From Zoroaster sp. YZ-2022 (taxonomy: Eukaryota > Echinodermata > Asteroidea > Forcipulatida > Zoroasteridae): a stretch of DNA of 64,000 nucleotides. Position 1 is the stretch's first letter, and each line of letters begins with the position of its first letter. The translations under genes and the position numbers were made by a program. Below are positions 9,003 to 64,000 of the stretch, piece after piece. Under the pieces are notes generated by a model. It did no database searches. It saw only the letters and a program-made list of their open reading frames with translations, and was not told the DNA's origin. Location: the NCBI GenBank assembly GCA_029582265.1, contig CM055816.1:37115357-37179356 (forward strand), read 5' to 3'.

Positions 9003-9310
9003 AGTAGTATGGTAGATGGGGGTCCTGGCTCAAGTACTTAAAAATGGGCGTGGTTGATGATGAGATTAAAAAAAGGGGTGGGTGAGTGGGTGTGGTTGAC
9101 GCTTGCGCGGTGGAGCATGACGTCATCAAAAAATGATGACGTCATCATGAGATGTTTGCGGTTGCGCGGTGTCGTGTATAGGTATAGGGGTAAGATTTGT
9201 AAAAGACTGAGTGTGTGAGGTACTCGCAAAAAAAGTATTTTTTTAAATCGATAAAAAAAGATATTGTTTTAGTCGCTAGAAAATTGAAATATCGATTCGA
9301 TATTATGTAG
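9003..9310 (+). repeat. Left terminal repeat of element 1
   Basis: It begins AGTAGTATGGTAGATGGGGG and contains two TGACGTCA palindromes at 9118-9125 and 9137-9144, arranged as an inverted repeat around a short A-rich loop. The rest is G/T-rich and then AT-rich and reads into the first gene at 9323. The partner right repeat was not found. Confidence 0.7.
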
Positions 9311-11401: not shown

Positions 11402-11416
11402 ATTTATAGTATAAAA

Positions 11417-11929: not shown

Positions 11930-11931
11930 AT

Positions 11932-42636: not shown

Positions 42637-42870
42637 AGTAGTATGTCAGATGGGGATCCTGGCTCATTTCACTCCGCTGCGCTCCGTTCATGATCCAGGA
42701 CCACTGCGCGGCGAGAGGTCAAGAGGTCAAGACGTCAAGAGGTGAGAGGTCAAGAGGTCAAGAGGTTCTAGTTAAATTTTCTAAAACTGATTTTTCCAAA
42801 AAAATGTCCCCTGTTGGTATACTAAAAAATCTTCCGCAAAAAAAAAAAGATGAATAAAAAAAATGAGAAA
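42637..42870 (+). repeat. Left terminal inverted repeat of element 2
   Basis: It matches 57240-57477 in inverse. It contains a short direct-repeat array of AGAGGTCAAG (about 42715-42765) and ends near TGTCCCCTGTTGG, beyond which the two ends diverge. Confidence 0.85.
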
Positions 42871-42926
42871 AAAATGAGAAAAAAAATAAATAAATAAAAC
42901 ATTATCTAGGTGTAATAATAAATAAG

Positions 42927-45900: not shown

Positions 45901-46797
45901 CGATTTAAATACCCAACTCAGAAAAGACGCAACGTCAGATTTTGAAAAAGATTTGTACAAACTCGTGAACAATTCAGTCTATGGAAAAACGATGGAAAAT
46001 GTACGAAATCGCGTCAACGTGAATTTGAAACGCCTCAACGATGAAAAAGCAGAAAATCAAATTCGTGCATTAATCGCGAAACCAAATTTTGCCGAGGTTA
46101 GGATTTTCGATCACGATCTAGCGGCGCTTCACATGCATAAAACAAAACTTTTACTCAACCGTCCAGTATACGTAGGAATGAGCATACTGGATTTATCTAA
46201 AGCTTACATGTATGATTGTTATTACAATCATTTAAAAAAGAAATACGACGACAAGTGTAATTTACTTTACACGCATACGGATAGCTTGTTCCTCGAGATT
46301 GAAACGGAAGACGTTTATAAAGATTTATATAAAGATGTGGATTTATACGATTTTAGTAATTATAAGAAAGATCATTTCTTATATTCTGAAGAGAATAAAA
46401 AAGTGATTGGAAAATTTAAAGATGAGACAGCTGGCGTAGCTATTTCTGAATTTGTAGGTTTAAGACCAAAAATGTACTCGATACATTTATCGAAAGAAAT
46501 AGAAATTAAAAAAAAGCTACTAGCTTAAGACCTAGCGTTTTATCGAGAGAATTTAAAAAAAGCTAAAGGCGTTAAAAAACAAGTTTTAGAAAAAAAATTA
46601 ACCACGAAAACTTTAAAGATGTTTTATTTGAAAATGAAACGTATCATCACAAGATGAATTTTATTAGAAACAAGGGTCATCATCTTTACACTATAAAAGT
46701 TGACAAAAAATCGTTAGACGGTCTCGATACAAAGAGATATATTTTACTAGATGGAATACATACTTTAGCTTACGGTCATTATAAAATTTCAGAGTAA
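42927..46797 (+). pseudogene. Protein-primed DNA polymerase B, frameshifted, catalytic motif C altered
   Basis: It spans about 1290 codons in at least eight frame segments. The order is SAP-like N terminus (YLSKWTLAELKEFGRSH), N-terminal domain (ISRYQPLRDGSYIEL), Cys-rich segment (FCLRCLQGYS), exonuclease motif I (YADFES, split by a frameshift near 44250), zinc-binding VRDHCHVTGKYRGAAH, HNLRGYDSHLIM (exo II), then a long open polymerase frame (45197-46528) with [17 protein letters not shown] and [17 protein letters not shown]. Motif C reads YTHTDS instead of YTDTDS (GAT to CAT at 46273-46275), which removes a metal-binding Asp. A TATAGAG repeat interrupts it near 43590. The stop at 46795-46797 overlaps the end of the integrase on the other strand. 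Confidence 0.9.
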
Positions 46798-47757
46798 TTT
46801 TTTAGGAGGATTTTCCGTATCTCGAGGAACAATTTGTAATTCTTCTCTTACAAAACTACGTTTGGGGCCCGCCTCTAAATAATACAAGATGGGTTGATGT
46901 TGAGCTTTTATAGTTTTACCTAAACTATAATTTTGTATAGACCATATAGGATCGGTCGCGCGACGTCTCGTATCTTGTTCAGCTACACCGGGTGCGTATA
47001 AATACCGAACTAGAGCGTTCGCATTAATTCTTTTTTCAACAGCAACTTTTTTAATAGCCGGTGAGGCTGGATTTTGCTCGACGAGTTGTAATTTAATAGC
47101 ATATTTAGGTTTTAAATGTATGAGTCTGGTCGTTTCGTTATTTAACGCTTTTACGACCAACGGTAATCTTTTAACCCATTCTCTCGATCTTTCATCCGTT
47201 GTTATTTCTTTAGCGTATTGATGAGAAAATGTTCTTTCGGCTAAAGTTCTATTAAATCGCTCTACTATACCCTGAGCTCTATGATTCCCGGCTTGGCTTC
47301 TTTGGATTTTTACATCGTGTTGACTCATGATTTTAGCGACGCTCGACATAAATTCTTTTCCAGGATCGACTTTTAAAGTTTTTGGCCAAGTGAGCGGGCT
47401 CCGCCTATAATTTTTTTCAAACGCTAGACTGACTTGAGCGGCAGTTTTATCGATTAGCGGTTCCGCTTCTTTATATCTGCAGGCTTCATCCGCAACGGTT
47501 AACGCGTACTTGTACGTCTTTTTACCTACACTATCGTGAGGAAGAAACAATAAATCATTTGAACTGGTCGGTCTAGGAATGTATTTAGGATAGGGTAAAT
47601 AAATTTGCCACAACGCTTGCTTTTTTATCCACTGCCGGACTATTGTAGGAGAAATTTTTGTTTCTTGAGCTAATTTTTTAATCGCGCCGAGACCTTTCCA
47701 GTATCCTTTCGGACTATAATAGACGTTTTCTAGCTTTAATCTCGTACGCTTATCCAT
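46789..47757 (-). CDS. Polinton integrase (rve family), 322 aa, internally deleted
   Basis: The frame is open and closely related to 35949-36962. Compared with that copy, 12 codons are missing immediately before the first catalytic Asp, so the strand leading into the active site is shortened although the Asp itself seems to remain (SSNDLLFLPHD). The second Asp (KVDPGKEF) and the Glu (GIVERFNRTL) are present. The C-terminal 'DPIWSIQNYSLGKTI' block is kept. It was probably inactivated without a frameshift. It is convergent with PolB and overlaps it by a few bases. Confidence 0.88.
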   Translation of the reverse strand: MDKRTRLKLENVYYSPKGYWKGLGAIKKLAQETKISPTIVRQWIKKQALWQIYLPYPKYIPRPTSSNDLLFLPHDSVGKKTYKYALTVADEACRYKEAEPLIDKTAAQVSLAFEKNYRRSPLTWPKTLKVDPGKEFMSSVAKIMSQHDVKIQRSQAGNHRAQGIVERFNRTLAERTFSHQYAKEITTDERSREWVKRLPLVVKALNNETTRLIHLKPKYAIKLQLVEQNPASPAIKKVAVEKRINANALVRYLYAPGVAEQDTRRRATDPIWSIQNYSLGKTIKAQHQPILYYLEAGPKRSFVREELQIVPRDTENPPKKLL

Positions 47758-47830
47758 TTAATATTTATAAAATAACAAAAAATTATTCGTTAGACATGAC
47801 AGAGTCTGGTAAAATTCCTTGTTGAACTAA

Positions 47831-48019
47831 TCACGTTTGAGTCATTAAAGCCGCTCCAACCGTCGTGGTGAGTTTTAGTCCATCGTTTATATCCAACTTT
47901 CCTAAATCGGCTGGATTTATTTTTAATACTTGTTTACCGAGCATGCTGTATAAAACGGATAAAAGTCCTACAACGGCACCGTGATAAGCTGAATTAACGA
48001 TTCTTTTTCTATCCATCAT
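47831..48019 (-). CDS. 62-residue Polinton protein
   Basis: Intact. A hydrophobic N-terminal half (SAYHGAVVGLLSVLYSML) is followed by a short conserved soluble part (INPADLGKLDINDGLKL) and a Thr/Ala-rich end. It is conserved in element 1, where two exons' worth of sequence are split by a CACTA insertion. It may be a small membrane protein. Function unknown. Confidence 0.7.
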   Translation of the reverse strand: MMDRKRIVNSAYHGAVVGLLSVLYSMLGKQVLKINPADLGKLDINDGLKLTTTVGAALMTQT

Positions 48020-48055
48020 ATTTTATAGGTGGTAAATATAATTTAAAAAAAAAAC

Positions 48056-48492
48056 TTATTCCATTTTAAAAACATTTATCGTCGCTTTGCCAGCGTGAGC
48101 GCTTGCGCCGCGTAGCGCTTTCTGTTCTTTTTCCTCCATTGTAATCGCTGGCGACGGAGTTTTTATATTTTGTTGTTGGTGGTAAATGTAATAAGCAAAA
48201 CCTATTAAACCTATTAAACCAAAACCGACGTAGTAGTAGTTTATTCCAGCGCTTTCTTCTTTTATTGCTGGTGTAGTTAAATTTTATTTTTTTACATAAT
48301 GAGTTTTGACAGCGCCCTTTTTTAATTTTTTTTTTTTTTTTTTTATTAACTTCCGCGTTTTTTTTTACCAGCAGCGACTCTATTTAGATTTTTTATTTTC
48401 TTACTGATCGCTGGTGTTTTCGTTACTGTCAACGGAGTTGCCGAGGGCTCCACATTCTGCTGCTGCGCATTCTCCAACTCGTTCGTTTCCAT
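48056..48492 (-). pseudogene. Basic membrane protein, frameshifted
   Basis: The start METNELENAQQQ and TVTKTP, then NLNRVAAGKK, match the element 1 copy. The frame breaks in long A runs near 48320-48360 (a Lys-rich tract in the intact gene). The end has EESAGINYYYVGFGLIGLIG (membrane helix) and terminates NVFKME. The A-rich tract is prone to slippage. It may be a DNA-binding, membrane-attached virion protein; this is inferred from charge and helix only. Confidence 0.6.
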
Positions 48493-49021
48493 CGCTTTTA
48501 TTATCTATACAAGATTCTTCTTTTCTTTTTAAATGTTTTGCCGTAATTAACATCGCGGTGATCGGGGCCAAATACATGCCGTACTTGTATTATATTTCAC
48601 ACGCTACGGAAGAAAGAAGGCTAGAAATGAATGGATCTTTTTCTAAATCTGTAATTAATTTACCTTCGTCGTCAATTTCAAAATGATATCCATATAAATC
48701 AACGTAGTTTATACTATATCCTAATCCTTTGACATATAATGTTAGAATGGCGCCACCTAAAGACGATGTTAGGTCGTGACCTAATTTAGTTTCGTATTGC
48801 GTGTATAATACATCTCGCTCCTCCGCCGACAAAGCTTCAATGTCGCTGACGGAATACTCTTTACCGAAAATGTTTTTTGAATCTCCTCCTGCTACAACAG
48901 AGAGGAGTCGTTTGTCCCGTTGCTTTTGCTTCAGCAGCAGGCTGTCACTTTCATTAAAATCCATTGATGGTGGGGGTAACATCAATGGTTCTTCGTTTAA
49001 TATGTTTTCAACTTCTTCCAT
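48401..49021 (-). pseudogene. Conserved Polinton protein of unknown function, nonsense mutation
   Basis: The first 143 codons are open (MEEVENILNEEPLMLPPPS, KLGHDLTSSLGGAILTLYVK, GYHFEIDDEGKLITDLEKDP). Then a TAA near 48590 interrupts, while the same frame continues through MYLAPIT and KEESCIDNK to a TAA at 48401-48403. The extended part overlaps the next gene by about 90 bases, as in element 1. Soluble and largely helical by composition. No family recognised. Confidence 0.65.
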
Positions 49022-49044
49022 TTATTATAAGTATTTATAGAACA

Positions 49045-49325
49045 ATTTGAGTAATTTTTAGTAACGATTCAGTAATTACTAAGTAACGATTCAGTAATGA
49101 TTCAGTAATTTTTAGTAACCAATCAGTAATTTTTAGTAACGATTCAGTAACGATTCAGTAATTACTAAGTAACGATTCAGTAATGATTCAGTAATTTTTA
49201 GTAACGATTCGGTAATGATTCAGTAATGTTGAGTAACCAATCAGTAATTTTTAGTAACGATTCAGTAATTACTAAGTAACGATTCAGTAATGATTCAGTA
49301 ATGTTTAGTAACCAATCAATAATGT
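49045..49325 (+). repeat. Iteron array (element 2)
   Basis: About 25 units built on AGTAA(C/T)GATTC, AGTAACCAATC and AGTAATTTTT/AGTAATTACT spaced 10-12 bases apart lie between the ATPase and the unknown gene. The position matches the array at 18305-18432 in element 1, and the shared core on this strand is AGTAAC. Confidence 0.88.
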
Positions 49326-49333
49326 TAAGTAAT

Positions 49334-49954
49334 TTAGTCTAGAATAGCATAATCGGTAGGTTGATCCGTTTTTAAAATCAATTTGCAATGTTTGGCTCGT
49401 TTTAATTTGTCATGCATTTGCTTTCTCAACTCTTTCGTGGGTATGACATCATTTTCTCGAAGACAATTTTCAAACGAGTCTCTATCTTTACAATAAAATA
49501 AACACACCCATTTGAGTTGCTCTCTAAAATCTTTCAATACGCTATTATATTTTTCTGAAATAATCCAACAGCTATGATTGGCGTGTCGACCGCTAAAAGC
49601 TAAGTGCGTCAGCGCGTGCGCCTCATCCTGGGAAAAAAATTTATATCGCAAATCTTTACTCGCGCTACAATCGTCGATGATAAACAACGTTTCGTTTCCT
49701 TTGAATACGTCGCTATAAATTTGTATCGCTTTGTTTAACGTACAACTTTTTAAATCGTCAACGAGCACTCGCTCGTCATTCCAAATCCATTTTCTATTTT
49801 GATAAGTGTCGTTGTCGGCGATGTTGGGGCATAATATGACGATCGTTTCAAAATATTTAAAATATTCTTTTTCTAACAAATTTAAAACAAATTCAGTTTT
49901 TCCACATCCGGTTTGACCACAAATTAATGCAACGTGTGGATATTTCGGCAACAT
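49334..49954 (-). CDS. A32-like genome-packaging ATPase, 206 aa
   Basis: An intact frame. Walker A is GQTGCGKTEF at residues about 13-22. Walker B is TLFIIDDCSAS at about residues 88-98. A downstream 'LAFSGRHANHSCWIISEKY' segment fits the sensor region of FtsK/HerA-type packaging motors of Polintons and large DNA viruses. It pumps the element genome into the capsid. It directly follows the capsid gene on the minus strand, so the two are likely co-expressed. This is one of the few large intact genes in element 2. Confidence 0.9.
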   Translation of the reverse strand: MLPKYPHVALICGQTGCGKTEFVLNLLEKEYFKYFETIVILCPNIADNDTYQNRKWIWNDERVLVDDLKSCTLNKAIQIYSDVFKGNETLFIIDDCSASKDLRYKFFSQDEAHALTHLAFSGRHANHSCWIISEKYNSVLKDFREQLKWVCLFYCKDRDSFENCLRENDVIPTKELRKQMHDKLKRAKHCKLILKTDQPTDYAILD

Positions 49955-50015
49955 CCATTTTAATATTAGTCAAGATGTTAGCGTAGCGTCGCTAGCGTAC
50001 CCGCTAAGTGTAATA

Positions 50016-51290
50016 CTAATAAACGACAGAATCAAAGCGTCCATTTCTTATATTGAGTTGCGCATCCATAATAATAAAAGTGTACATGAATAATTCACCC
50101 GCGGTTTCTGATTCTTTATCCATTTGAATGGTAATTCCTTCGGATAAGTTTTGTACTTGTCTTCCACTTCCATGCATTTTATTGTCGTCGCTAGTTCTCA
50201 TATCTAAAAATAAACCGTATCGATGAAGTAAATAATCGGCTTGTTTGACGTTGGATAAATTTAGGGCTTTAACAACTTGCATAGCGTGTTCTTTGTTTGA
50301 ATCACCAAAATATTTCTAAATTTCTTCCTAATGTTGATACCTTTGCATTCCCTGCGCGTAGAGTTGATTGGGAACGCCTTCGATCGTAATTGAAACTTTA
50401 GCGATTTTTAGATTATAAAATTTCCACGTTTCTTTCACATCGGGCTCTTTGAATAAAAACAATATTCCTTTCATACTTTTTGCGGGTGTATTTATATTTA
50501 TATTCCACGTTGTATTGCGTTTGTTTAATGGGGTCACGCTCTGTCTTAAGACTCGATCAAACAATATCACCAACTTGTCGCTGTATTGATTTTTTATCAT
50601 CGTTGCGAGATGCGGCATATGAACGACTTCATATTCTAAAGAAATCCCACTTATGATATATTTCGCATTATCATCGGTGCTTTTAATCACGTTAGAAAAT
50701 GTATTAAACACGAGTTCGTAAGTCAACCGATCTCCGATCCCCGATTGGTAGTAGGGCTGATGATCGGTGAGTAATTCAAAATCGAGCGGAATGTGATATC
50801 TATTTTTCAAACAATCCGCGATGGCTTAATCTTTTCCTCCGTTGCCTGTGGGAACCGCGTCGCTGGTGCCTACTCTTAATTTAGTTACGTTAGCATCTTC
50901 GATTCCTTGGTAAGCTAGATTTTCACGTTGATCTTTCGTTAACCATTCGTCTTTATAACAATGAAATACATCCGCATCGTCTAATGAAAATATTTAATTT
51001 CCTTCCATTTTAATGATTTTATTTTTTACGATGGCTCTACCTATGTTATGTACCATCGTTCTTGTATCATTGTCCGCAGACTGGAGAACAATGTTGAAGG
51101 CTAATCTAACCGTCCCCGGAACGATGACGTCATTTTTTCCTAAATTTGGAAAACGAACCGTCAACAATTGATTTTCGGTAATGGTGCTTGGATTGTTTGT
51201 AATGACGACTTTTTGACGGAATCCTTTTAATCCCAAAGGTTCTCTTAATCTTCTCTATGGATTGAGTACATCTCCGTACGCATTCATCAT
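50016..51290 (-). pseudogene. Polinton major capsid protein, multiply broken
   Basis: It is closely similar to 16003-17287 throughout. The start lies at 51290 (MMNAYGDVLNP), followed at once by an in-frame TAG where the other copy has Tyr. Further breaks occur near 50994, 50825 and 50320. Conserved landmarks include LLTVRFPNLGKNDVIVP, the RYHIPLDFELLTDHQPYYQS region, ITIEGVPNQLYAQGM and the C terminus NGRFDSVVY. It would form the double jelly-roll capsomer. It is divergent from 51348. Confidence 0.82.
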
Positions 51291-51347
51291 ATTTTATATT
51301 TACAAACTATAAAATATATTTTCTTTTTTTTTTTAAGAAAAAGTAAA
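51291..51347. promoter_or_regulatory. Divergent promoter of capsid and small membrane protein genes
   Basis: 57 bases of AT-rich DNA containing TATATTTACAAACTATAAA, which is also present in the matching gap of element 1 (15985-16001). It separates divergent start codons. Confidence 0.45.
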
Positions 51348-51781
51348 ATGGTGTCACTAGCGATGATGATTGGAGGCGCGGTCGTCAACGCGTTAGCTTT
51401 TACCGGATCAATTTTTTTATTTTCTAGTTTTCGTTCTAGCGATGCAGAACAAGAACGTAAAAGACACGATTTAGCGCTAGAACAACTTACAAAAGCCAGA
51501 GACGAATTTAGTAAAAAGCGGTTAAAATATCTAGATTATTTAAACGAACGAATACAAAAAGAATCAAACGCTAAAAAAAGTTTAATAATATTGACGATGC
51601 GATGAATGAATATTATAACATCACCGGCGAACAATTTGACTTACCTCTTCGCGAACCCAAACTTGAGGATTTTTACGTTCCTAGCGAAGATCAAAAAACG
51701 CGAGAAGTACTATTCATTTTGATTGGTATGAGTATAGTAGGCTACGTAAGTTATAAATTACTGAAAAAAGATAAAACGTAA
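51348..51781 (+). pseudogene. Small two-helix membrane protein, frameshifted
   Basis: The N-terminal membrane helix (MMIGGAVVNALAFTGSIFLF), a charged coil (EQERKRHDLALEQLTKARD) and, after a frameshift near 51590, 'FYVPSEDQKTRE' and a C-terminal helix (VLFILIGMSIVGYVSYKLL) are seen. It is the better preserved form of 15580-15962. The two membrane helices at opposite ends suggest an envelope or inner-membrane role, which is inference. Confidence 0.65.
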
Positions 51782-51788
51782 TTGTAAA

Positions 51789-52238
51789 ATGGTAGAAGGA
51801 AAAAACCCCTTCATCGAGATGGATCCAAATTTTTATTACCCCGAAGATGATGGATATATTGAAGATGATACCATCAACACCCAGTTAGGTATACCAGAAG
51901 AAGAAACATATTTCATAACTTTATCTCAAAAAGATAGATTACGTAAAGATATAGTCGATGATTTTTATAAAAGTATAGGGTATGAACCCATTATAAAAGA
52001 CTATAATAATTTCAAGTATGAACTAGACGATAAAGGAGTGGGTATACTATATTTTATAAGAGGTGATAGCCTTAGCGGCTACGCTAAAGAAATACGTCTA
52101 TCTAATTTGAGAAAAAAAGGCGAATTTTTAAAATTAAGTTCAATAAAAGGTTTAACTAAAAATGATTTAGGACTATTTGATGAAAGTAGAAAAAGCTATA
52201 TTAAATGTTATAAACGAAACAGAAAAACCATTACCTGA
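51789..52238 (+). CDS. Acidic 149-residue Polinton protein of unknown function
   Basis: An open frame with an acidic N terminus (MDPNFYYPEDDGYIEDD) and a mixed alpha/beta pattern (GVGILYFIRGDSLSGYAKEI). It takes the slot of 15174-15565 but shows no clear similarity to it, and its 3' end overlaps the next gene by 62 bases. Function unknown. Confidence 0.55.
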   Translation: MVEGKNPFIEMDPNFYYPEDDGYIEDDTINTQLGIPEEETYFITLSQKDRLRKDIVDDFYKSIGYEPIIKDYNNFKYELDDKGVGILYFIRGDSLSGYAKEIRLSNLRKKGEFLKLSSIKGLTKNDLGLFDESRKSYIKCYKRNRKTIT

Positions 52239-53105
52239 CTATGGCGATAAAGAAATGGATGGTAGAAGGTTACCTTCTATACCGAAACAACGTGTAGAAA
52301 AATCAATACAAGTAGAAGAAGCTATCGAAATGGCGAGAGATCAAACCGCTCAAACGGAATTAAACATTCCATGGCGAGAAGTGTTAGCACTCAATGAAAT
52401 CATGACTAGAAATCGAGGTGAACAATTAGATCTTTTAACTAAATTAAAAGTACTCAATCAAAAAATATCTGATATTCAAGAATTAATTTCCGACGCTGAA
52501 GAAAGAGGGCTTGATGTTAGCGAAAAAGATCGTCGCGAGTTGCAAAAACTAAAAGATGACAAACGAATTATCGTAGAGCAAAGAGATGCGCCTGGTTATG
52601 TTCTTCATAGTCAAATCAATAGAATTAAAGAAACTTTTCAAAAAATGTTAGAAAGAGATGTCACGTTGGGGGATAAAATTAAAACTTTATTTAGAGAACA
52701 AGGTGTAACGATCGTTAGTTTATTAACGGCTGTTAGTATGACCCTCGCTTTTATCGTCGAATCAATCGCCAATGCTGTAAATACAGCTTTACCAAAACCT
52801 ACACCCGCACCAAAACCTGCGCCGCCAAAACCTGCGCCGCCGGAACCAACACCGGCGCCCACGCCAGAACCTAAACCGAGCGGCGGTGTAAAAGAGTGGA
52901 TACAAAAAACATTAAAAAAGCTAGCGAGTGTATTAGCAAAACTCGGAGAAAAAGCTTTAGCCGCTTTACCGGGTATTATCGGTGCGGTTATAAGTTGGTT
53001 ATTTATAAAACAGCTTCCAGCGTCGTCACATGGGCGGCAGAACATTTGTGGCTAGCCTTAACCGGGATTGGAGTTTTAATTTTATCTTATATAAAACGCT
53101 CATAA
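52177..53105 (+). pseudogene. Pro-rich coiled-coil protein with C-terminal membrane segments
   Basis: Open for 292 residues, then a frameshift near 53010; the conserved end (LWLALTGIGVLILSYIK) continues to a stop at 53105. Parts in order: an N-terminal acidic region, a coiled coil (LLTKLKVLNQKISDIQELI), a hydrophobic segment (VSLLTAVSMTLAFIVESIA), about 40 residues of KP/AP repeats, then LAALPGIIGAVISWLF and the terminal helix. It matches 14049-15179. The amphipathic tail may act on membranes. Confidence 0.7.
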
Positions 53106-54425
53106 GTAATCACTGCTAATCCAGCCAATATCGCGAAACCAATAATTAAAGCATTTTTTTCGTCTTGGTGCGTTGCGTCCTGGGTAGAGGTAGGGGGAGA
53201 GCCGAGGCTTTTTAGATCTTCTTGGACATGCTGCGGCGTTGGTGCATCTGGAACAGTATTCTTAGGTAGCTGTACCGCTATAGGTAGTGGTAAAGAAAGC
53301 AACGTTGAATTCGTGTCTTGATTTAATCCTAATGATAAATCTGACGTTGCGATTAAAATATTATTGTTGTATCCTACGTACGTACCTATATGCATACTCA
53401 TATCGCTTGGCATGAGATATAAATTTTCCCCGATCGCAAAGTTTAATTGCGATCGAGCGTATTTTAAATTATCTTGATATTGTTGAATAGATTTTTCTAA
53501 ATCTACGGGGGAATCGATCAAAGCATCCACACTATTTAAAAATTCGCGCTGTGCATCTAAACCGGTACCACCTGTAAACAATGAGGTTTTTGCTTGCACT
53601 TGAGCTCCTAATAATGCGTAAACGTACGTTCTTATAGAATCGTTAATTCGTTCTGTACCGATATCTGTAAAACCTCTAAACTCATCGATTATAAATTTTG
53701 TCCAAGCGAGCTCTGTAGATGGAGATTGTAAAATGTAACCGATCGTATATGTCGAGGGATGATCTCCAAAACTCATTTTTGTTGCAGTTTTATAATAATC
53801 GTAATCGCCCACCTCGGTAGAGATGACATTCAAACTAGAATTATCGTAGTCTTTTCCAGGCACCGCTTTGTAGCCGTCGTTATCGTAATAATAGGCCGTT
53901 CCCAATCCTGACGAGTTTTTGTCTACGCGTTGTTTCCAATTAGAAACTTGTGAAAGGTGAAAGTCTTTACATATTTTTTTATACGCGCTAATGTCTATAT
54001 TGTTGTCGAATGCGCTAAAATAATTTTGAAAAGACGTGGGGCAACTAATTTCTTTGAGTAATCGTCTCATTTGATAATAGACGTGAAATCTCAAAAAAAC
54101 TACGAATCATCCTATTCGAATGATTTAAATGTTTATAACTCACGCCGCATCTCGTCGTACTGCAATACGTTACAAAATTCATTTGATTTTGATAACATTT
54201 TAGCGGATTAGAATTTCAACTATTTACAATCTCGTCGCTATTAACGCGAGGCAACTTGTAGTTGCTAAAAACATTGTCGAGTTGTACGTTAAAAAACTCT
54301 GTTTCATTGACGTAAATATTCATAGTCGTCAAATCGCTAGCATTAAAATTTTGAGGCGTACTAAAATTTCCAGATTGCGGATATGGAAACGAAAAATTAT
54401 TCTGAAACGCTAATGGAAACGTAAT
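53087..54425 (-). pseudogene. Large conserved Polinton protein, start codon lost and frameshifted
   Basis: The long frame 53087-54094 matches residues from about 105 of 12648-14037, including QMRRLLKE, 'YDYYKTATKMSFGDHPSTYT' and the C-terminal anchor (NALIIGFAILAGLAVITYE). The upstream part is in other frames to 54425, where the expected ATG reads ATT. Thus both translation start and frame are lost. The C terminus overlaps the gene at 52177-53105 by 19 bases, tail to tail. Probably structural; no named family. Confidence 0.7.
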
Positions 54426-54462
54426 TATTATTATATTAAAATTATAAATTTTTAATAATAAA
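54426..54462. promoter_or_regulatory. 37-bp divergent promoter
   Basis: Made of A and T only apart from two bases, with repeated ATTATT/AATAAT on either side. It corresponds to 12612-12647. Confidence 0.5.
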
Positions 54463-55140
54463 ATGTATCACACCTTTGAAATCGAAATTGAAAAAAATAG
54501 CGAGTCGGTTCAATTAAATGACGTCATCGATAATCGCGACGGACGACTCAATATTTCATTAAATAGCGTTAACATTTGGGTGGGATATTACAACGTGCGT
54601 AGAAAAGAAAACATAATCTATCGTACGATTGGTCAGCAACAAGATGTCGTAAACTTTATCGAACCGGGGCTTTACAACATGAACGAAATTATCGATATTA
54701 TAGAAAAAGATGCGTCTTGGCTCCCTTTCACCATCGATGAAAAAACAGGTTTTTTCTTGCTAAATATTAAGCAAGAAAGCAGATCTATCAAATTTTCATC
54801 TGGGTTAGCTAATTTACTCAGGTTTCACAACGAATTTCTAACTGTGGGAGAATATAGTAAAACAATTTATGTACAACCTTTTAAAATGTTATACATTCAT
54901 TGCGATCAAATTTCTACGACCGAAAATTATTTCACCGGTAAAACTTATACTATTTTAAACGCTTTTCCGTTACAAGACAATTCGTTCGGAGAGAGTATGT
55001 GGATAGAATATAACAATCCCTTAATGAAAAAGCTTAAAACCGGTACTTTTAACGAATTGAGTTTTCAAATTAAAGATTCAAAGGGTAGAGACATAAATAA
55101 TCACGGTTTCCCTATTATTTTAAATCTAGAAATTATATAA
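54463..55140 (+). CDS. 225-residue beta-rich Polinton protein (minor capsid candidate)
   Basis: An intact frame. Conserved segments are YHTFEIEIEKN, NIWVGYYNVR, EPGLYNMNEIIDII, SGLANLL, 'PFKMLYIHCDQIST', and a C-terminal 'LSFQIKDSKGRDINNHGFPI' strand pair. No hydrophobic anchor and alternate-residue patterns suggest an all-beta protein. The size and location between the large structural gene and the MASIYGPSR genes would suit a penton-type single jelly roll. No diagnostic motif proves this, so the call is a candidate only. The stop is separated by six bases from the next ATG. Confidence 0.6.
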   Translation: MYHTFEIEIEKNSESVQLNDVIDNRDGRLNISLNSVNIWVGYYNVRRKENIIYRTIGQQQDVVNFIEPGLYNMNEIIDIIEKDASWLPFTIDEKTGFFLLNIKQESRSIKFSSGLANLLRFHNEFLTVGEYSKTIYVQPFKMLYIHCDQISTTENYFTGKTYTILNAFPLQDNSFGESMWIEYNNPLMKKLKTGTFNELSFQIKDSKGRDINNHGFPIILNLEII

Positions 55141-55146
55141 ATAGAT

Positions 55147-55619
55147 ATGGCGAGTATTTACGGACCAAGTCGAACAAGCGCGCAAATTTCGTCTAGCGTA
55201 GCCGCTAAGGCTAGCAACAACGTTTACGAACATCACGGCTATATCGATAGGGGTGAAATTTTACAAACAATACCTCTTGTCGAAAAATTTAACATTATAC
55301 TCGGATGGCACGGTGTGCTTAAACTACCCTTGTACATGTTCAATCAAGCACCCGCATACTGCTCAATTTTTGTAAAATGTATGAATGTTGAAGGTATTTA
55401 TTCACATTCGGCGGAGGGTAGTTTTGACGCCAACGTATATCATATTCCTTCTCCCGCTCGAGATAAAAGATTAGTTTTCAACGAGACTTCGCAGCACGTA
55501 GAATACGAAATTTGTTTCAAAACGCAAAATGACAAGGTTTTGTACAAGGAAGCTTTTTCGGCGCTTTAAATACTAAAATATGTTTCAATATAAAAATTAA
55601 AAGTTTACCGTTAAATTAA
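55147..55619 (+). pseudogene. MASIYGPSR-family protein (subfamily c), frameshifted
   Basis: Open for 140 residues with MASIYGPSRTS, HHGYIDRGEILQTIPLVEKF and FNQAPAYCSIF, as in 11417-11929. A frameshift near 55545 disrupts the FFGAL region, and the conserved SLPLN ending is found in another frame with TAA at 55617-55619. Confidence 0.72.
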
Positions 55620-55640
55620 ATTTTATTTTATTATATAAAT

Positions 55641-56127
55641 ATGGCAAGCATTTACGGACCTACTCGAAAAAGCGAAGCGAGTCAGTCACGCGTTTCTAAT
55701 AAAAACATCATCTTTGAAAAAACTGGATATATCGATAGGGAAGAAGTTGAAAATTCAAAACATTTGTATGTATCGGATGATTATACATTTCGTATACGAT
55801 GGTCTGGAAATGGAATACCATTTTTTTTATCATACGGTAGACACACCAACATACTGTTCAGTGTATTACAAAATAAAATACAATAGTGAAAAAAAAATTT
55901 CAAGCGTTTCAAATTGTGAAATTAATCCAAATTCAAGGGATGGTATTTTTTTTCCAGAAGAAGATTTTGAAGAAAGATTTCAATTTAATAATGAACCAAA
56001 GCTTATTGAAATAGGAATTTGTTTCAAAACACAAAATAAAAAAGTTTTTGCACAAGCGACCTTTTTCGGCTCTGTAGAAACTGGAATCTGTTACGATATC
56101 AAAGTTCATACTTGGCCGTTAAATTAA
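55641..56127 (+). pseudogene. MASIYGPSR-family protein (subfamily a/b), frameshifted
   Basis: It starts MASIYGPTRKSE, with EKTGYIDREEVE, and shifts frame near 55840. The second frame gives the Cys-containing middle and the ending VFAQATFFGSVETGICYDIK with WPLN. It lies next to the previous gene with a 21-base AT-rich gap. Confidence 0.72.
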
Positions 56128-56154
56128 AAAATAAAAGATTATAATATTTTACTA

Positions 56155-56165
56155 TTAATAGTAAA
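56155..56165 (+). promoter_or_regulatory. TTAATAGTAAA promoter motif
   Basis: It lies two bases before the ATG at 56168, inside the palindrome ACTATTAATAGT. Matching sequences precede other genes of all three elements. Confidence 0.55.
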
Positions 56166-56167
56166 TA

Positions 56168-56791
56168 ATGAGCGTAGTTACCGAAACAAATAAACTTTAT
56201 CCAGGTGTACGGTATATGATGGATACTTCCGATAATGCTAAAACCTTTCGTTTGCAAAAAATCGATAACATTCAAAAAGAATTACGAACCGAAAGAAACC
56301 AACGCGAAACAAGTTATAAAAAATATAATAAAATCATCAACGCTTGCTCTATCGTAGAAACGATGGCTGAATTGGGCTGTATGGGAGCAGGGGCCGTTGG
56401 TATCGCTACCGTTATAGCAGCCCCCGTAGGATTCGCTTTAGAAGGACTAGCTTTAGTGTTAGGTGGGGCGGCGTTTGCCATCAGATACGCCAAATATAAA
56501 TTGTTGAAAAAAGCTAAAAAACATAACGATATTAGAGTTTTAGCATCATCTAAACTTAACACGATCGAAAACCACGTTTGAAAAGCCATTCAAGACGGTG
56601 TCATTGCCCAAGAAGAATGTTTACTCATCTGCGAAGAACGAGATAAATTTTCTCAAATGAAAGAAAATATCCGTACTACCTATAGCGGTACAGCTAAATT
56701 TAGTCCTAAAAATGACGATAAAACAGATGTAAAACCTGTCGATGATAAATTAAAAAAAGATCTTATAGAAAATATTATGAATTTAAAATAA
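56168..56791 (+). pseudogene. Conserved glycine-rich membrane protein, nonsense mutation
   Basis: The first 137 codons are open (AKTFRLQKIDNIQKELR, GCMGAGAVGIATVIAAPVG, KYKLLKKAKKHNDIRVLA). A TGA at 56579-56581 replaces the Ser of the NHVSKAI motif. The same frame then continues to TAA at 56789-56791 with the conserved 'EERDKFSQMKE' segment. A single substitution accounts for the loss, so this may be a recent lesion. Counterpart of 9743-10348. Confidence 0.75.
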
Positions 56792-56814
56792 ACTTTAGTA
56801 TAAATAAATACAGA

Positions 56815-56880
56815 TTTAACGAGGATACGCGAGCTACGCCAGCGGCTCGCGCCGCTCCTCCGCCGTATAATTTTTTATTT
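56815..56880. terminator. GC-rich hairpin between convergent genes (element 2)
   Basis: CGCGAGC at 56828-56834 pairs with GCTCGCG at 56845-56851 across a 10-base loop, in otherwise AT-rich DNA. It stands in the same slot as the hairpins at 9673-9695 and 62452-62478. Confidence 0.5.
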
Positions 56881-56885
56881 ATAAA

Positions 56886-57185
56886 CTATAAACGTGTTGT
56901 TGTCTTTATCAACTCTTTCATCACTAAATTAAATAAACGTCTTGCTTTCCCTTCAACGCGCTTTAAACTTTGTACATTTAATGTCTTTGCACATTTCGTA
57001 CACAAACTTATTGTTGTTTTTGTAACTTTTTTACATCTTCTACACTCAGTCGGAGGTCTTTTTCCACATTTTATTTTCCACTGATGTAAGGCGCAATAGT
57101 CCACAATGGGTGAGCTAAGTATACAACACTTGGCTGTTTTACCAACTAAAAGCCATTTGCAGGGAACGATCGCTTTAACTGACAT
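56886..57185 (-). CDS. Small Cys-rich (zinc-finger-like) Polinton protein, 99 aa
   Basis: An intact family member with Cys/His groups PCKWL, KCC, YCALH, CRRCKK, LCTKC and a helical end (KARRLFNLVMKELIK). Four Cys pairs could bind two zinc ions. It is the rightmost gene of element 2, transcribed inward, with the terminal repeat upstream. A role in DNA or terminus binding is possible but not shown. Confidence 0.75.
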   Translation of the reverse strand: MSVKAIVPCKWLLVGKTAKCCILSSPIVDYCALHQWKIKCGKRPPTECRRCKKVTKTTISLCTKCAKTLNVQSLKRVEGKARRLFNLVMKELIKTTTRL

Positions 57186-57239
57186 CCTCGCTTTTATTAT
57201 TGTACTATATATATTTTTTATTCATCTTTTTTAGTGGGC

Positions 57240-57477
57240 CAAATTTTTTTTTTCAGTTTTATTTTTATTAAATCTCACCTAGTCCTACAGGGGACATTTT
57301 TTTTTTGAAAAATCAGTTTTAGAAAATTTAACTAGAACCTCTTGACCTCTTGACCTCTCACCTCTTGACCTCCAGTAGTATGTCAGATGGGGGAACGGAG
57401 TGCAGCGCAGTGGTCCTGGATCATGAACGGAGCGCAGCGGAGTGAAATGAGCCAGGACCCCCATCTGACATACTACT
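57240..57477 (-). repeat. Right terminal inverted repeat of element 2, with terminal palindrome
   Basis: It matches the left repeat in inverse. The last 104 bases (57374-57477) begin and end with AGTAGTATGTCAGATGGGGG in opposite orientations, so the terminus can fold on itself. The left end lacks this inner inverted copy. Confidence 0.85.
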
Positions 57478-59150: not shown

Positions 59151-60421
59151 CCTCAACGACAGTCAACGACCTCAACAAGAGAAACGGACAACAGAAAATG
59201 AAAATAAAATTAAGTAAAGCTGCTCCCTGATCAGGGTGCACCATGGCGGGGGGGGGGATGTGTAAAAATGCTTGTTATATATACTGGTGGCCCTTCAAGC
59301 TTACATGCACATGCATACGCAACGCCGTAAAATATAATAGTGAGTGGAATAAAGGGAAAACTTTTGGAGGGGAGCTTGAGTCTCCTGAGTCCCCATCCCT
59401 TGTACCACTGCCCTATACTCCTTGCCGAACTCCTCTGTAGACAAGACTTGGGCTCAGAGTTTGCTCTCTTTCCTGGCTCCTTCTTTAAAAAAAAAAAAAA
59501 ACATCAGCGGGCCCTTGGGGGGGGGGGGGCTCGAGCCCCCCAAGCCCCCTCCCCCTTGGGTGCGCCACTGCAAGTTATAGTTACCTCTCTTGTTGGGTTT
59601 GTTTGAACTTTGACCTTTTCGGCAGCAATTTCTCGAACTGTTGTCCCCTTATCGTAAAGACTTACTTGCAGATTCGGTGCTTCGAAACGCTCCATATTGA
59701 ATGGTCTTGCCCGAGAACTGCAATAAATAATAATATACCAAAACTACAGCCAGATTTCCTTTCAAACAATCTTGCTAAAAAGCAAACTAATGCAAACGGT
59801 TGCTGAACGGGTGCTGAACTTTGACCAACCATTTTCAATCACATTTCTCATTAAGAACACACCTTTTTTCGTACAGATTGTCCTCTGTTACAGTGTATAA
59901 TTATGTGACAACCCCATGCATAGGAGTGGGGTTTGTAAAGAAAAAGTTAAGCAAGTTAATCACCCTTCAATTCGCACCTTCACCCAAGGTTTATTTTGTT
60001 TGAAGGCGAATTAGTTTGAATCTCGCTCGGTAGCCAACACAGCGTGATGTCACTGCTAGAGATAATAGTTCGATTGTTCAATTATAATCAGTTACAACGT
60101 GAACAATCTAAAAGCATGATGATAAAAGGGATTTTTGACTGTTTATTAACTTACCGGTATAAACAAAACAAAGGTCACATTCCCCAAATCTGTGTTCAAG
60201 CAAGCACCAGTTTGGGGCCAGTTGTGTCACGCTGGTTAGCGGGCGCTGGTGAATCTATTTACGTTAAAATTAGTTATCTCTGCATTCCCCATTGACTTTT
60301 TACATGCAAATGACTTCCACACATGCCCAGCTAGCTATGTCTAGGATTATTTTCAACCCCCAGATGACCCCCAGATGACACACAACACCCGTGTAGTGTA
60401 TCTCTCTGCTGTATGACCTTG
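59151..60421. other. Non-coding host DNA with simple repeats
   Basis: No gene found. G- and C-runs near 59250 and 59510-59550 lie close to GGTGCGCCACTG, which resembles the end of a hAT-like non-autonomous element, but no convincing partner end or target duplication was seen. Confidence 0.35.
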
Positions 60422-60660
60422 AGTAGTATGGTAGATGGGGGTCCTAGCGCAACTTCTCAAAAAACATATTTTTTTCCAAATTCCCTGGGTAGTAGTAGGC
60501 AGTTTTGAAAAAGTAGAAAAAACTAGCGTTTTAAAACACCTAAATTCCCTGGGTAGTAGTAGGGGGATTTAACTCCAACTTTGCAAGAGCTTTTTAAGAA
60601 AATCTAAACACTTCACGTTTTTTAATTTTATTTTTCCCGTTTTTATTTTCTAAATATATA
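60422..60660 (+). repeat. Left terminal region of element 3
   Basis: The first 20 bases match element 1. Inside, AAATTCCCTGGGTAGTAGTA occurs twice (from about 60478 and 60542), a direct repeat of a piece that itself echoes the AGTAGTA terminus. Confidence 0.7.
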
Positions 60661-60673
60661 TTAATAAGAGAAA

Positions 60674-61660
60674 ATGGCAAAACAAATACCAGTCAACAAC
60701 ATAAAACGCAAAGTATTAGATTTTTCAAAATTTTTAAAATACAACGAAAGTACTAATGAATATGTACCACAACCTAAAGTATATCAAATACTAACACCCC
60801 CAGATTGGGACAACAACGTAAAACGTGAAAAATTAGATAAATCAAAATTTTTAGAATACAACGAAACATTAGAAAACAATAAAGAGTACGAATACGATTT
60901 TTATTTTAAAATCGAAACGGGTTATGTGTTCAAAATTTTAATAGATATTTTAATAGGTATCAAACCGAAAGCTCGGTTTAAGGTAGATAAAACGGGGTTT
61001 TATTATCACGAGGTAGATTTATCGCAAAGAATACTCGTAGATGTATCGTTAAACAAAGAAAACCTTTTAGAATTTAAATGCGAAAACCCAATTGATTTTT
61101 CGATAAATTTAAAAGTTTTACAAAAAATTACTCGCGGTATTAAACGAAAAGTTCCAATAACTGTTTACGTAAAAAAAGAACGATTGTATATTGAAACATG
61201 CTATGAAAAAAGCGAGAAACCAACAACATATGCATTTTCAAGTTTGCTAACACGTTAGTGGTTGAAGCTCCTATTGACGACGATTATCACTGTCCCTACA
61301 TAGTTGAAAGTGTTGATTTTTTAAAACTTAAAAAAATGTTGCAAGAAAACGTAACACTTTCTATTAACATGAACAATTTAGATTACATTAGCTTTTTAAA
61401 CGATGACAATCATGTTTATGGTACATGTTTAGAATTCGGGTGATATACATAAAAAGCAACTGCTTACTTATTCAGCTACTTTTGATTCAACTCTATTTAG
61501 CGCTCTATTAAAAATGTCGCCTTTAAACAAAGAAATACAATTTTTTGCGCCCAAGAATGAAAAAGTTCCATTAAAAATTGCAGCGTCAGTAAGCAATTTA
61601 GGAAAAATTACAGCTTATATTAAAGACGAAAGTTTTTTACAGATGGAGAAAGAAGCATAA
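60674..61660 (+). pseudogene. PCNA-like DNA sliding clamp, frameshifted twice
   Basis: Three frames (60674-61258, about 61230-61443, about 61436-61660) read as one protein of about 325 residues. From residue about 74 the pattern follows PCNA: F-KI at the first strand, 'FKILIDILIG', 'ARFKVDKTGFYYHEVDLSQR' (G-x-x-x-x-x-x-D), a LEFKCENPIDFSINL segment, then 'LVVEAPIDDDYH' (inter-domain connector-like), and a C-terminal 'FSALLKMSPLNKEIQFFAP', 'VPLKIAASVSNLGKI.AYI' matching the end of the second clamp domain. The clamp would encircle DNA and hold PolB. It is the first gene inside the terminus, and elements 1 and 2 lack it. Residues 15-25 and 54-64 repeat LD-SKFL-YNE. The family call is from pattern only. 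Confidence 0.65.
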
Positions 61661-61719: not shown

Positions 61720-61730
61720 TTAATAGTAAA
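61720..61730 (+). promoter_or_regulatory. TTAATAGTAAA promoter motif
   Basis: It lies five bases before the start codon of the Cys-rich gene at 61736 and is identical to the motif upstream of PolB in element 1. Confidence 0.55.
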
Positions 61731-61735
61731 AGAGT

Positions 61736-62050
61736 ATGCAGAAAATAATCGTTCCTTGCAGATGGTTAATAACTGGTAAAACGTACAAATGTTGCGTGCG
61801 TAGTTCACCCAACGTATACTATTGCGCTTTTCATCAGTTTAAAATTAAAAACGGAAAAACCTCACCAGTCGAGTGTAAAAATTGTAAAAAAGGTACAAAA
61901 ACAACAACGGGTTTATGCGCAAACTGCGCGAGAGCATTAAAAGTAAAAACTTCTTACCAAATGAACAAAAAAGCTACACGGTTGTTTAATTTAGTAATGG
62001 TAGAGCTAATAGAAAATAAACTAAAACTAAAAAAAATTAATGTTGAGTAA
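61736..62050 (+). CDS. Small Cys-rich (zinc-finger-like) Polinton protein, 104 aa
   Basis: Intact. Metal-binding pattern PCRWL, KCCVRSS, YYCAFH, ECKNCKKG, LCANCARAL, then a helical end (KATRLFNLVMVELIE). It is the complete form of the fragmentary genes at 9323 and 40338. Its last codons overlap the start of the next gene. Function unknown. Confidence 0.75.
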   Translation: MQKIIVPCRWLITGKTYKCCVRSSPNVYYCAFHQFKIKNGKTSPVECKNCKKGTKTTTGLCANCARALKVKTSYQMNKKATRLFNLVMVELIENKLKLKKINVE

Positions 62051-62420
62051 TATCAATATGGGTGAACTACTACGAACGTGTATACTTGATCTTATTGACG
62101 ATTTAAAACGCTTCTCGTCAGAGTCGTTTTGTACGCTGTCGCGAAGCGCAAATTCTCTCGATTTTATATTTTTAGAATATTATATTAAAAACATTCTCGC
62201 ACAACGATTGATTATACTCGTGCGAGAAAAATTAGTTCCAGCGTCAGAGTTGTTTAAATCTAGAAATTTAGCTGGTATAAAAAGGTATTTACAAGCACTC
62301 GGTTTAGACACGTATTACATCGATTTGTATTATACCGAGTTCAAGAGTATAAACGAAATAATTAAAGAAACTATTTTTTGCCATTTAGAACTAATTATAA
62401 ACATTGTACTAAACATTTAA
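62040..62420 (+). CDS. 126-residue helical protein of unknown function
   Basis: An open frame overlapping the previous gene by 11 bases. A second Met (62058) could be the true start. The sequence is rich in Leu/Ile and charged residues (LLRTCILDLIDDLKRFSSES, FLEYYIKNILAQRLIILVRE), consistent with a compact helical bundle. No copy was seen at the same place in elements 1 or 2. No family recognised. Confidence 0.55.
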   Translation: MLSNINMGELLRTCILDLIDDLKRFSSESFCTLSRSANSLDFIFLEYYIKNILAQRLIILVREKLVPASELFKSRNLAGIKRYLQALGLDTYYIDLYYTEFKSINEIIKETIFCHLELIINIVLNI

Positions 62421-62508: not shown

Positions 62509-63138
62509 TCACTTTAAACTCAAAAGTTTTTCTATAAGAATTTTTTTTTCTGCGTTAGCGCTAACTGGAGTTGGAGTACTAGTTTTAACCTCGGTTTTAA
62601 CCGGTATAGTCGTTGGTACATTACGGATTTTTTCTTTCATTTTATAATATTTATCTCGCTCTTCGCATATGAGCACAAATTCTTCTTGACTGACGTAACC
62701 GTCTTCGATGGCTTTACTAACGTGGTTTTCGATCGTGTTGAGTTTACTCATTGCTAAAACTCGTATTTCATCATGTTTTTTAGCTTTTTTATACATTTTA
62801 TTTTTCGCAAATCTAATAACAACCGCTGCGCTACCCAACCTCAAAGCTAAACCTTCTAAAGCTAATCCTACTGGCGACGATACGACGCTGGCGATACTGG
62901 CTATTCCGATGGCTCCTGCTCCCATACAGCCCATTTCTACGATAGTTTCTATTATATTACAAGCGTTGATGATTTTATTATATTTTTTATATACGGCTTC
63001 GCGTTCGTTTATTTCGATTCGTAATTCTTTTTGAACATCGTCGATTTTTTGCAATCTGAATGTTTTAGCACGCTCTGTTTCATAGTTGTTTGTAATAACT
63101 GGTAAATTTGGATAAAGCACGTTCGTTGATTCGCTCAT
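62509..63138 (-). CDS. Conserved glycine-rich membrane protein, 209 aa
   Basis: Intact; equals 9743-10348 in layout. N-terminal 'STNVLYPNLPVI', charged helix (AKTFRLQKIDDVQKELR), Gly-rich hydrophobic block (GCMGAGAIGIASIASVVSSP), basic 'KNKMYKKAKKHDEIRVLA', C-terminal 'EERDKYYKMKEKIR' and a Thr/Lys-rich tail. Possibly a virion membrane-active or core protein. The TTTATTAATAGTAAA palindrome lies just upstream (63140-63154). Confidence 0.75.
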   Translation of the reverse strand: MSESTNVLYPNLPVITNNYETERAKTFRLQKIDDVQKELRIEINEREAVYKKYNKIINACNIIETIVEMGCMGAGAIGIASIASVVSSPVGLALEGLALRLGSAAVVIRFAKNKMYKKAKKHDEIRVLAMSKLNTIENHVSKAIEDGYVSQEEFVLICEERDKYYKMKEKIRNVPTTIPVKTEVKTSTPTPVSANAEKKILIEKLLSLK

Positions 63139-63159
63139 TGTTTATTAATAGTAAAGATT

Positions 63160-63678
63160 TTAATCTTTATGAAAAGTATAAATTGGAATTTTTTTAAGTA
63201 AAACTTCATGGCATATTCCTGTGGTTAAAGAACCAAAAAAAGTAGATTTTAAATAGAATTTAGCATGATTTACATAACGATTTGAAAGGAAACAAAATGT
63301 ACATTCAAAATAACTCGGTTCATTATCAAAAAGAAAACTTTCGCCTCCTGGGGTTCCAATTAGTTGTTTCCAAGTATCATGAGAATTATCTTCATTAAAT
63401 TGTTCACTTTTTACCACAGAATAAACATTATTTGCACCTTTATGACTCGTTGTAAATAATGAATAATATAATATATCATCAACTAAAAAAACTAGTCGGT
63501 TGAGTAACAGCTGTATTTCAAAGTTTAAAGTGTTGAAATATTTAAAAGAAATTAATGTTACAAGTCTTACTCCAAGTTCACTAGGGGCGATATATCCAGT
63601 ATTTTCAAACATAATGTTTTTTTCACTTTTTTGGCTCCGCTCACTCATTATACGACTGGGTCCATAAATACTCGCCAT
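63160..63678 (-). CDS. MASIYGPSR-family protein, divergent (172 aa)
   Basis: The N-terminal MASIYGPSR and the C-terminal STFFGSLTTGICHE blocks identify the family. The core (HKGANNVYSVVK, WKQLIGTPGGES) is unlike the others, and the ending is extended by a different tail. An intact frame. It shows that the middle can change almost completely while the ends stay. Confidence 0.7.
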   Translation of the reverse strand: MASIYGPSRIMSERSQKSEKNIMFENTGYIAPSELGVRLVTLISFKYFNTLNFEIQLLLNRLVFLVDDILYYSLFTTSHKGANNVYSVVKSEQFNEDNSHDTWKQLIGTPGGESFLFDNEPSYFECTFCFLSNRYVNHAKFYLKSTFFGSLTTGICHEVLLKKIPIYTFHKD

Positions 63679-63697
63679 ATTTATTATATCTCTATAT

Positions 63698-64000
63698 TTA
63701 ATTTAACGGTAAACTTTTAATTTTAATATTGAAACAGATTTTTGAATTTAGCGAACCGAAAAAACTCGCTTCAACAAAAACTTTTTGAACGTTTCGCATT
63801 TTAAAACACATTTCGTATTTTAAATGTTGAATTTCATGATCGAGAAAATGAAATTTTACATCTCGTTGCGGAGAAGGAATATAATAAACGTTGGGAGCGT
63901 AATCGCGCGTCGATGAATGCGTAGCAAAACTATTAGTTTTTATAAACTGCGTAAAAATGCTGCAATACGTAGGCGCGACCGTAAACAAGAAAAAGGGTTG
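63698..64000 (-). CDS. MASIYGPSR-family protein, subfamily c, partial at window edge
   Basis: The C-terminal 97 codons are visible: FTVAPTYCSIFTQF, YIPSPQRDVKFHF, KVFVEASFFGSLNSKICFN and the SLPLN end. It is closely similar to 11417-11929. The N terminus is beyond the window. Confidence 0.7.
   Translation of the reverse strand, partial: QPFFLFTVAPTYCSIFTQFIKTNSFATHSSTRDYAPNVYYIPSPQRDVKFHFLDHEIQHLKYEMCFKMRNVQKVFVEASFFGSLNSKICFNIKIKSLPLN

Follow-up and report, generated by a model that had tools for sequence, protein, structure and literature searches.

A PCNA-type clamp gene inside the terminus of a Polinton lineage in the sea star Zoroaster sp.

The clamp gene of element 3

The 64,000-bp stretch of the Zoroaster sp. 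YZ-2022 genome analysed here (the window, C1:37115357-37179356) holds two Polintons, elements 1 and 2, and one end of a third, element 3. The first gene inside this end of element 3 is spread over three reading frames and encodes a putative clamp related to PCNA. The end comprises the following features:

60417..60421, unstranded: left copy of the element 3 target-site duplication CCTTG (right copy after C1:37192566, beyond the window)
60422..60571, plus strand: first 150 bp of the element 3 terminal inverted repeat (TIR), matching the far end, once reverse-complemented, at 150 of 150 positions, with an exact terminal 20-mer at both ends
60674..61258, plus strand: clamp gene piece 1, N-terminal extension and PCNA domain 1 (PCNA_N at residues 79-188; family model positions 4-154)
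60694..60749, plus strand: repeat copy 1 in the N-terminal extension, 84% identical to 60811-60866
60811..60866, plus strand: repeat copy 2 in the N-terminal extension
61207..61443, plus strand: clamp gene piece 2, in another frame, with the end of domain 1, the linker and the start of domain 2 (model positions 159-236)
61433..61660, plus strand: clamp gene piece 3, in the third frame, with the remainder of domain 2 (model positions 236-307)

Element 3 is 16,789 bp long, ends at C1:37192566, is flanked on both sides by CCTTG and contains an integrase and a B-family DNA polymerase (PolB). The original prediction, which placed a PCNA-like gene at 60674..61660 beside the end of a Polinton, had the coordinates right, and the TIR, the target-site duplication, the integrase, PolB and the gene order all agree with a Polinton.

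In Pfam, piece 1 (194 aa, P0001) scored 39.5 bits with PCNA_N (E 5.6e-10), the cut-off being 20.3. It also matched the NCBIfam PCNA family TIGR00590 (E 3.7e-9), yet with 36.4 bits against a cut-off of 99.1, as well as PCNA chains in PDB (best single clamp at E 4.7e-5). When the 1,416 open reading frames (ORFs) of the window were ranked with a PCNA profile made of 32 yeast PCNA relatives and five archaeal clamps, piece 1 came top (E 4.1e-10; runner-up 0.58). Taken singly, pieces 2 and 3 gave no significant match to PCNA in Pfam, PDB or PCNA profiles. Compared with length-matched ORFs and with shuffles, the score of piece 2 was at chance level; at the end of domain 2, piece 3 outscored all other members of a set of 154 scored length-matched ORFs, but 191 of 5,000 shuffles did as well.

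A profile of the clamp family itself, built from 27 uninterrupted relatives in the same genome with the window copy left out, matched the three pieces at E 3e-77, 7e-35 and 7e-38. As they cover consecutive parts of its 310 positions, the window copy represents one whole clamp gene broken twice, in line with the two frameshifts originally proposed. The best ORF of the window beyond these pieces reached E 0.48 with this profile, which upholds the proposed absence of the clamp from elements 1 and 2. Among the clamps, the N-terminal extension varies in length and contains at least one copy of a KREILDxSKFL-like motif (60694-60866 in the window; N-termini of L038-L077).

The clamp family across the genome

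The genome searched comprised 1.0 Gb in 616 contigs. Searching it for PCNA_N gave 328 first-look candidates, of which 150 were scored, all over the cut-off. Three of these were exons of the spliced host PCNA on contig C9, and the 147 others included the window copy. A stop lay within the match at 12 of the 147 places, while 63 were free of such a stop and had 290 aa or more of open frame. The reading covered 40 of the 147 loci, 20 from among the 21 best matches and 20 chosen by hand, mostly with long frames; 31 were uninterrupted, i.e., with a match starting at model position 120 or before and reaching within 45 of the end, a figure from a hand-picked sample rather than an unbiased rate. All five intact relatives scanned matched PCNA_N at 38.5 to 47 bits.

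Identity between clamps averaged 65% and fell to 50% at the lowest (15 clamps compared). With up to half of the residues differing, the family has diversified in this genome. A second clamp subfamily was seen at L040 and L042, where neither the small cysteine-rich ORF that usually follows the clamp nor its neighbour was matched; judged by these matches, gene content at the clamp-bearing end is variable.

Fold and domains of the clamp

Profile-profile alignment (hhalign) of the clamp family with PCNA extended over 235 columns and PCNA positions 4-252 (E 5.6e-10), and over 209 columns when 21 clamps were used (E 2.1e-8). In a PDB profile search, Drosophila PCNA (4hk1) was aligned across 13-255, and the 60 matches listed out of 86 were all PCNA or archaeal clamps. 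These alignments show both PCNA domains to be present. No Pfam PCNA_C match was found in the five intact clamps scanned. The two-domain PCNA pattern that the original prediction had read by eye thus recurs as a PCNA_N match above the cut-off and as two domains in profile-profile alignment, and the profile searches that it proposed returned PCNA in Pfam, PDB and hhalign alike. Structure prediction, proposed as well, bore it out in part: fold comparison of the predicted structure, from an alignment that held no PCNA, recovered the clamp fold of domain 1 with confidence, while the model of domain 2 had low confidence. AlphaFold applied to piece 1 without relatives was unusable (predicted local distance difference test, pLDDT, of 32).

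Membership in the 9-1-1 clamp (Rad9, Rad1, Hus1) was considered and was not supported by the Pfam or PDB matches: in the five clamps scanned, Pfam matched PCNA_N but none of the 9-1-1 families. The tree described below contained no 9-1-1 protein. Taken together, the profile matches support the identification of the window gene as a PCNA-type clamp.

The clamp gene as a part of Polintons

The original prediction suggested looking for intact relatives beside termini elsewhere, and these were found. In 34 of the 40 clamp loci, the terminal 20-mer (4 mismatches or fewer) preceded the start of the frame by 102 to 573 bp (median 220) on the same strand, and the remaining six had it with 5 to 7 mismatches at 145 to 300 bp. 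A base-shuffled control on the 20 longer loci gave no match in 825,885 positions. Polinton ORFs of the window came after the clamp in 20 of 20 longer loci, and the cysteine-rich ORF with its neighbour in 18 of 20.

The far ends of four clamp-bearing elements were read; all four contained an integrase and PolB (68 to 87% identical, with some split into several pieces), and in two of them the opposite terminus was found as well. These two (L068/L078 and L069/L080) measured 17,186 and 16,857 bp and were flanked by perfect 5-bp duplications, CAGCG and CACCC, with a TIR identity of 148/150 in L068/L078. The integrase domain rve was over the cut-off in the clamp-bearing L079, and an A32-type ATPase was matched in a clamp-bearing element at E 4.3e-12. 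All target-site duplications had 5 bp, three of them perfect (CCTTG, CAGCG and CACCC) and that of element 2 matching at 4 of 5 positions. The target-site duplication of Polintons is usually 6 bp.

At 8 of the 91 scored PolB places, a scored clamp in convergent orientation occurred within 25 kb, at a distance of 12.4 to 18.0 kb, against a mean of 0.17 and a maximum of 3 in 2,000 runs of random placement. Two further pairs within 25 kb were not convergent. These results show that the clamp gene sits in mobile elements that also hold an integrase and PolB.

Genome-wide, the terminal 20-mer (3 mismatches or fewer) occurred 1,987 times, against 33 for the reversed pattern, and the search for PolB gave the 3,750 first-look candidates from which the 91 were scored. 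Both figures suggest that the genome is very heavily loaded with Polintons. Judged from the 91 of 3,750 PolB and the 150 of 328 clamp candidates that were scored, the clamp-bearing elements are probably a minority of them.

Between the TIR and the first gene, elements 1 and 2 have a gap of about 0.3 kb, which is about 1 kb longer in element 3 and occupied there by the clamp. The genes that follow in element 3 are:

61730..62050, plus strand: small cysteine-rich zinc-ribbon-like ORF (Pfam match weak, below the cut-off), the first gene within the TIR in elements 1 and 2; present in 18 of 20 clamp loci
62031..62420, plus strand: ORF of 129 aa, downstream in 18 of 20 clamp loci
62509..63141, minus strand: ORF of 210 aa, present in 20 of 20 clamp loci, with similar DNA in elements 1 and 2
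63160..63702, minus strand: ORF of 180 aa, related to other ORFs at the same end

Minus-strand ORFs at 9743-11971, 55120-56128 and 63160-64000 cross-match and form a small tandem family near the Polinton end. A 22-bp subterminal repeat was seen after the TIR (60478-60499 and 60542-60563), and GGGTAGTAGTAGG words also occur near other element ends.

Selection and conserved residues

Selection was estimated as the ratio of nonsynonymous to synonymous rates (dN/dS) on 27 of the 40 loci, chosen as uninterrupted, after dropping pairs with dS outside 0.05-1.5 (337 of 351 pairs kept for the core, 250 of 351 for the extension). In the core, median dN/dS came to 0.36 (domain 1, 0.37; domain 2, 0.35) and none of the 337 pairs exceeded 1, which at the codon level shows both domains to be under constraint. 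The N-terminal extension had a median of 0.70, and 46 of its 250 pairs exceeded 1.

The positions K13, K14, K20, K77, R80, R146, R149 and K217 of PCNA are taken here to face DNA in the hole of the ring. In the 27 clamps, basic residues occurred at K13 (27/27), K77 (26/27), R80 (25/27), R146 (26/27), R149 (27/27) and K217 (27/27), against a mean basic fraction of 0.134 per core column. H44, V45 and P234, presumed positions of the pocket for PCNA-interacting peptides (PIP) and mapped to the clamps by alignment, were changed: H44 was kept in 0/27 (mostly Glu), V45 in 0/27 (Arg in 27/27) and P234 in 6/27. D41 was kept in 27/27 and L47 in 26/27, and the C-terminal LAPK stretch was replaced by IKDES or alike. 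As the hole-lining basic residues are mostly kept and the pocket positions changed, we read the clamp as a probable DNA ring with altered docking. With H44, V45, P234 and LAPK changed, it was not filed as a PCNA orthologue.

Origin and relatives

A tree was built from 15 of the 27 clamps together with host PCNA, nine fungal-type and four archaeal PCNAs. In it, the clamps formed one clade (support 100/100) on a stem of 2.06 changes per site, while the host PCNA grouped with the fungal-type PCNAs. Mean identity between the clamps and host PCNA was 16%. The tree shows the clamps to share a single origin separate from host PCNA, and it speaks against their being recently copied from the host gene. 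As the tree tool warned, long branches meet here, so that the deep placement of the clamps is tentative.

Outside this genome, a protein database search with P0001 gave 192 candidates, none at E 1 or below, and no relative of P0001 was found in phages. Viral contigs contained no clamp relative by P0001, by 11 intact clamps or by the TIR pattern, and nothing was found in them with the integrase; the ATPase query gave one weak locus (L001), and a query with yeast-type PCNA picked up a single contig, L002, where a eukaryote-like PCNA occupies two frames. The PolB query gave one contig, L029, 44% identical, whose best match to the clamp profile (E 0.039 over 28 positions) was not convincing. PHROGs annotation yielded neither a clamp nor a polymerase for those clamps and PolB that were submitted to it. 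The few named matches to the integrase included metagenome-assembled genomes of Thiodiazotropha and Sedimenticola, which are clam symbionts, a weak hint at a marine invertebrate host.

Proposed role and alternative explanations

Polinton polymerases are thought to be self-sufficient and protein-primed, needing no clamp. In this genome, PolB motifs B and C were present in 3 of 3 frames and motif A in 1 of 3 by the pattern used. The interpretation favoured here, at a probability of roughly 0.55, is that a Polinton lineage carries a PCNA-type sliding clamp of its own, encoded by the gene nearest to one terminus, and that this clamp serves the element's DNA synthesis. The clamp would form a ring on DNA, as its residues suggest. 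It could hold the element PolB on its template, a service that we infer, or it could organise gap filling and second-strand synthesis around integration. Its partners would be element-specific rather than host PIP-box proteins, as expected from the change of several PIP-pocket residues, and it might be loaded by host replication factor C (RFC) or by spontaneous opening. No clamp loader (RFC) turned up in the Polintons, none having been systematically sought. Most likely, the clamp would assist the element in its own DNA synthesis or in repair at the time of integration. More tentative, and short of even odds, is the wider proposal that a virus-like element with TIRs and an integrase, with a polymerase of a class regarded as protein-primed and as working without a clamp, evolved a dedicated clamp with its own partners that is under selection and present in well over a hundred copies.

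Several observations weigh against a role in the element's DNA synthesis. Many Polintons seem to lack the clamp (3,750 PolB against 328 PCNA_N first-look candidates; elements 1 and 2), the pLDDT was under 50 for most of domain 2, and the hole positions K14 and K20 were basic in 0/27 clamps. The PolB frames of four clamp-bearing elements, a set that does not include element 3, contained no strict PIP box; a loose PIP match in the fingers/palm of PolB is common to the clamp-less element 1, and another was present in L081 alone. PolB itself, with no solved-structure match in PDB, is identified by its motifs and a weak match to Pfam DNA_pol_B_2, and is putatively protein-primed. Finally, a related B2 polymerase of Entamoeba is reported, in the portion of the source available, not to be stimulated by PCNA (PMC3511435), so that a dedicated clamp is surprising and its role is not to be presumed.

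The main rival, though unlikely, is that the clamp sits on element DNA as a decoy and, rather than helping a polymerase, shields the element from host PCNA and the clients of host PCNA in chromatin assembly, silencing and repair. This would suit a clamp with retained hole residues, altered pocket and C-terminal stretch and a fast-evolving N-terminal extension; however, the pocket may simply have switched partner, and its positions are presumed ones mapped by alignment. By analogy with VP1 of the archaeal virus HCIV-1, the clamp could also act in the particle or in packaging instead of replication. VP1 has two PCNA domains in a virus without a recognisable polymerase gene, according to the accessible text of PMC4958249, but such a role is improbable: the hole residues are retained, and the clamp gene stands at the terminus, which in the element 2 layout is some 8 kb away from the A32 ATPase.

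The two frame breaks of the window copy might be assembly errors rather than decay. The identical 150 bp of the element 3 TIRs and the open adjoining frames leave little time for decay, but broken copies occur elsewhere too (the 12 of 147 with a stop in the match); such an error is considered a slim chance, and it would leave the family result unchanged. That the clamp is a functionless passenger copy of host PCNA, as the broken frame in the recently inserted element 3 might suggest, is highly improbable given its divergence from host PCNA and long stem, the constraint on both domains, its same place in many elements and the spliced host gene on a different contig.

Elements 1 and 2 and other features of the window

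The terminal 20-mer was exact at 9,003 and 60,422 and had 2 to 3 mismatches at 42,637, 57,374 and 57,458, none being expected by chance. The features of the two elements without a clamp are:

9003..9022, plus strand: element 1 TIR, terminal 20-mer
42637..57477, unstranded: element 2, 14,841 bp with both TIRs
45128..46528, plus strand: element 2 PolB fragment, with motif B present and motif C changed
46789..47757, minus strand: element 2 retroviral-type integrase (rve E 1.4e-4, under the cut-off)
49334..49969, minus strand: element 2 A32-type ATPase (Pox_A32 E 6.9e-10, over the cut-off)

The imperfect duplication around element 2 reads CCGCG/CCGGG (42632-57482). Its PolB copy (45128-46528) is probably inactive, because motif C reads YTHTDS, against YTDTDS in the others. 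The integrase copy of element 1 (35946-36962) matched rve at E 1.2e-7, just under the cut-off. Element 1 also contains pieces of retrotransposons without long terminal repeats (20732-24689 and 31140-34970), in which a GDSL esterase domain (E 1.2e-10) adjoins one reverse transcriptase and endonuclease. A stretch resembling recombination endonuclease VII was seen in the long PolB frame (L079:4070-7501; window 44552-45001; Pfam E 5.7e-5, just under the cut-off). For a capsid protein or protease, no Pfam match was obtained among the element ORFs scanned at E 0.01, and no further search was made.

Comparison with known systems

The elements described here match Polintons/Mavericks in their TIRs, short target-site duplication, integrase, PolB and A32-type ATPase. 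The eight core genes given for vertebrate Mavericks (int, ppolb, atp, pro, two capsid proteins, pz and pw) include no clamp in the available part of PMC8097293. No Polinton clamp was found reported in the titles, abstracts and passages surveyed from the open literature, including the accessible parts of PMC8715426, PMC4981718, PMC12198294, PMC10598087, PMC10132985 and PMC10285105; subscription papers, preprints and Repbase were outside this search, and priority is not established. PCNA is listed among the domains enriched in endogenised regions of Amoebidium, an organism that also has adintoviruses, in the portion of PMC11244446 at hand.

The result is a Polinton lineage with its own PCNA-type clamp, an observation that was confirmed and whose interpretation is supported, with a function that we infer. 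A conserved clamp in some Polintons would show that a clamp module can join a protein-primed type of replication and, if the wider proposal is true, it would be without known precedent as a clamp acting with, or around, this replication type in eukaryotes. It raises the questions of how such a clamp is loaded when no element-encoded loader is known, and of whether a PCNA can be rewired so as to leave the network of PIP-box proteins. Elements with and without the clamp, both present in this genome, form a natural pair for asking what the clamp adds. In the text available of PMC7805220, Polintons are regarded as ancestors of many DNA viruses of eukaryotes.

Compared with eukaryotic and archaeal PCNA (PF00705, TIGR00590), the Polinton clamps share a mean identity of only 16 to 18%, add an N-terminal extension of about 25 to 120 aa, have a changed PIP pocket and C-terminal stretch, and are encoded in a single open frame within a mobile element. 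Nucleocytoplasmic large DNA viruses likewise carry a PCNA, but in large genomes, and it is given together with replication factor C in the accessible section of PMC4602308. HCIV-1 VP1 is a further case of PCNA domains in a small virus, one whose DNA is linear; it differs, in the same partial source as above (PMC4958249), in being a structural protein of the virion that resembles haloarchaeal clamps, in a virus without a recognised polymerase gene.
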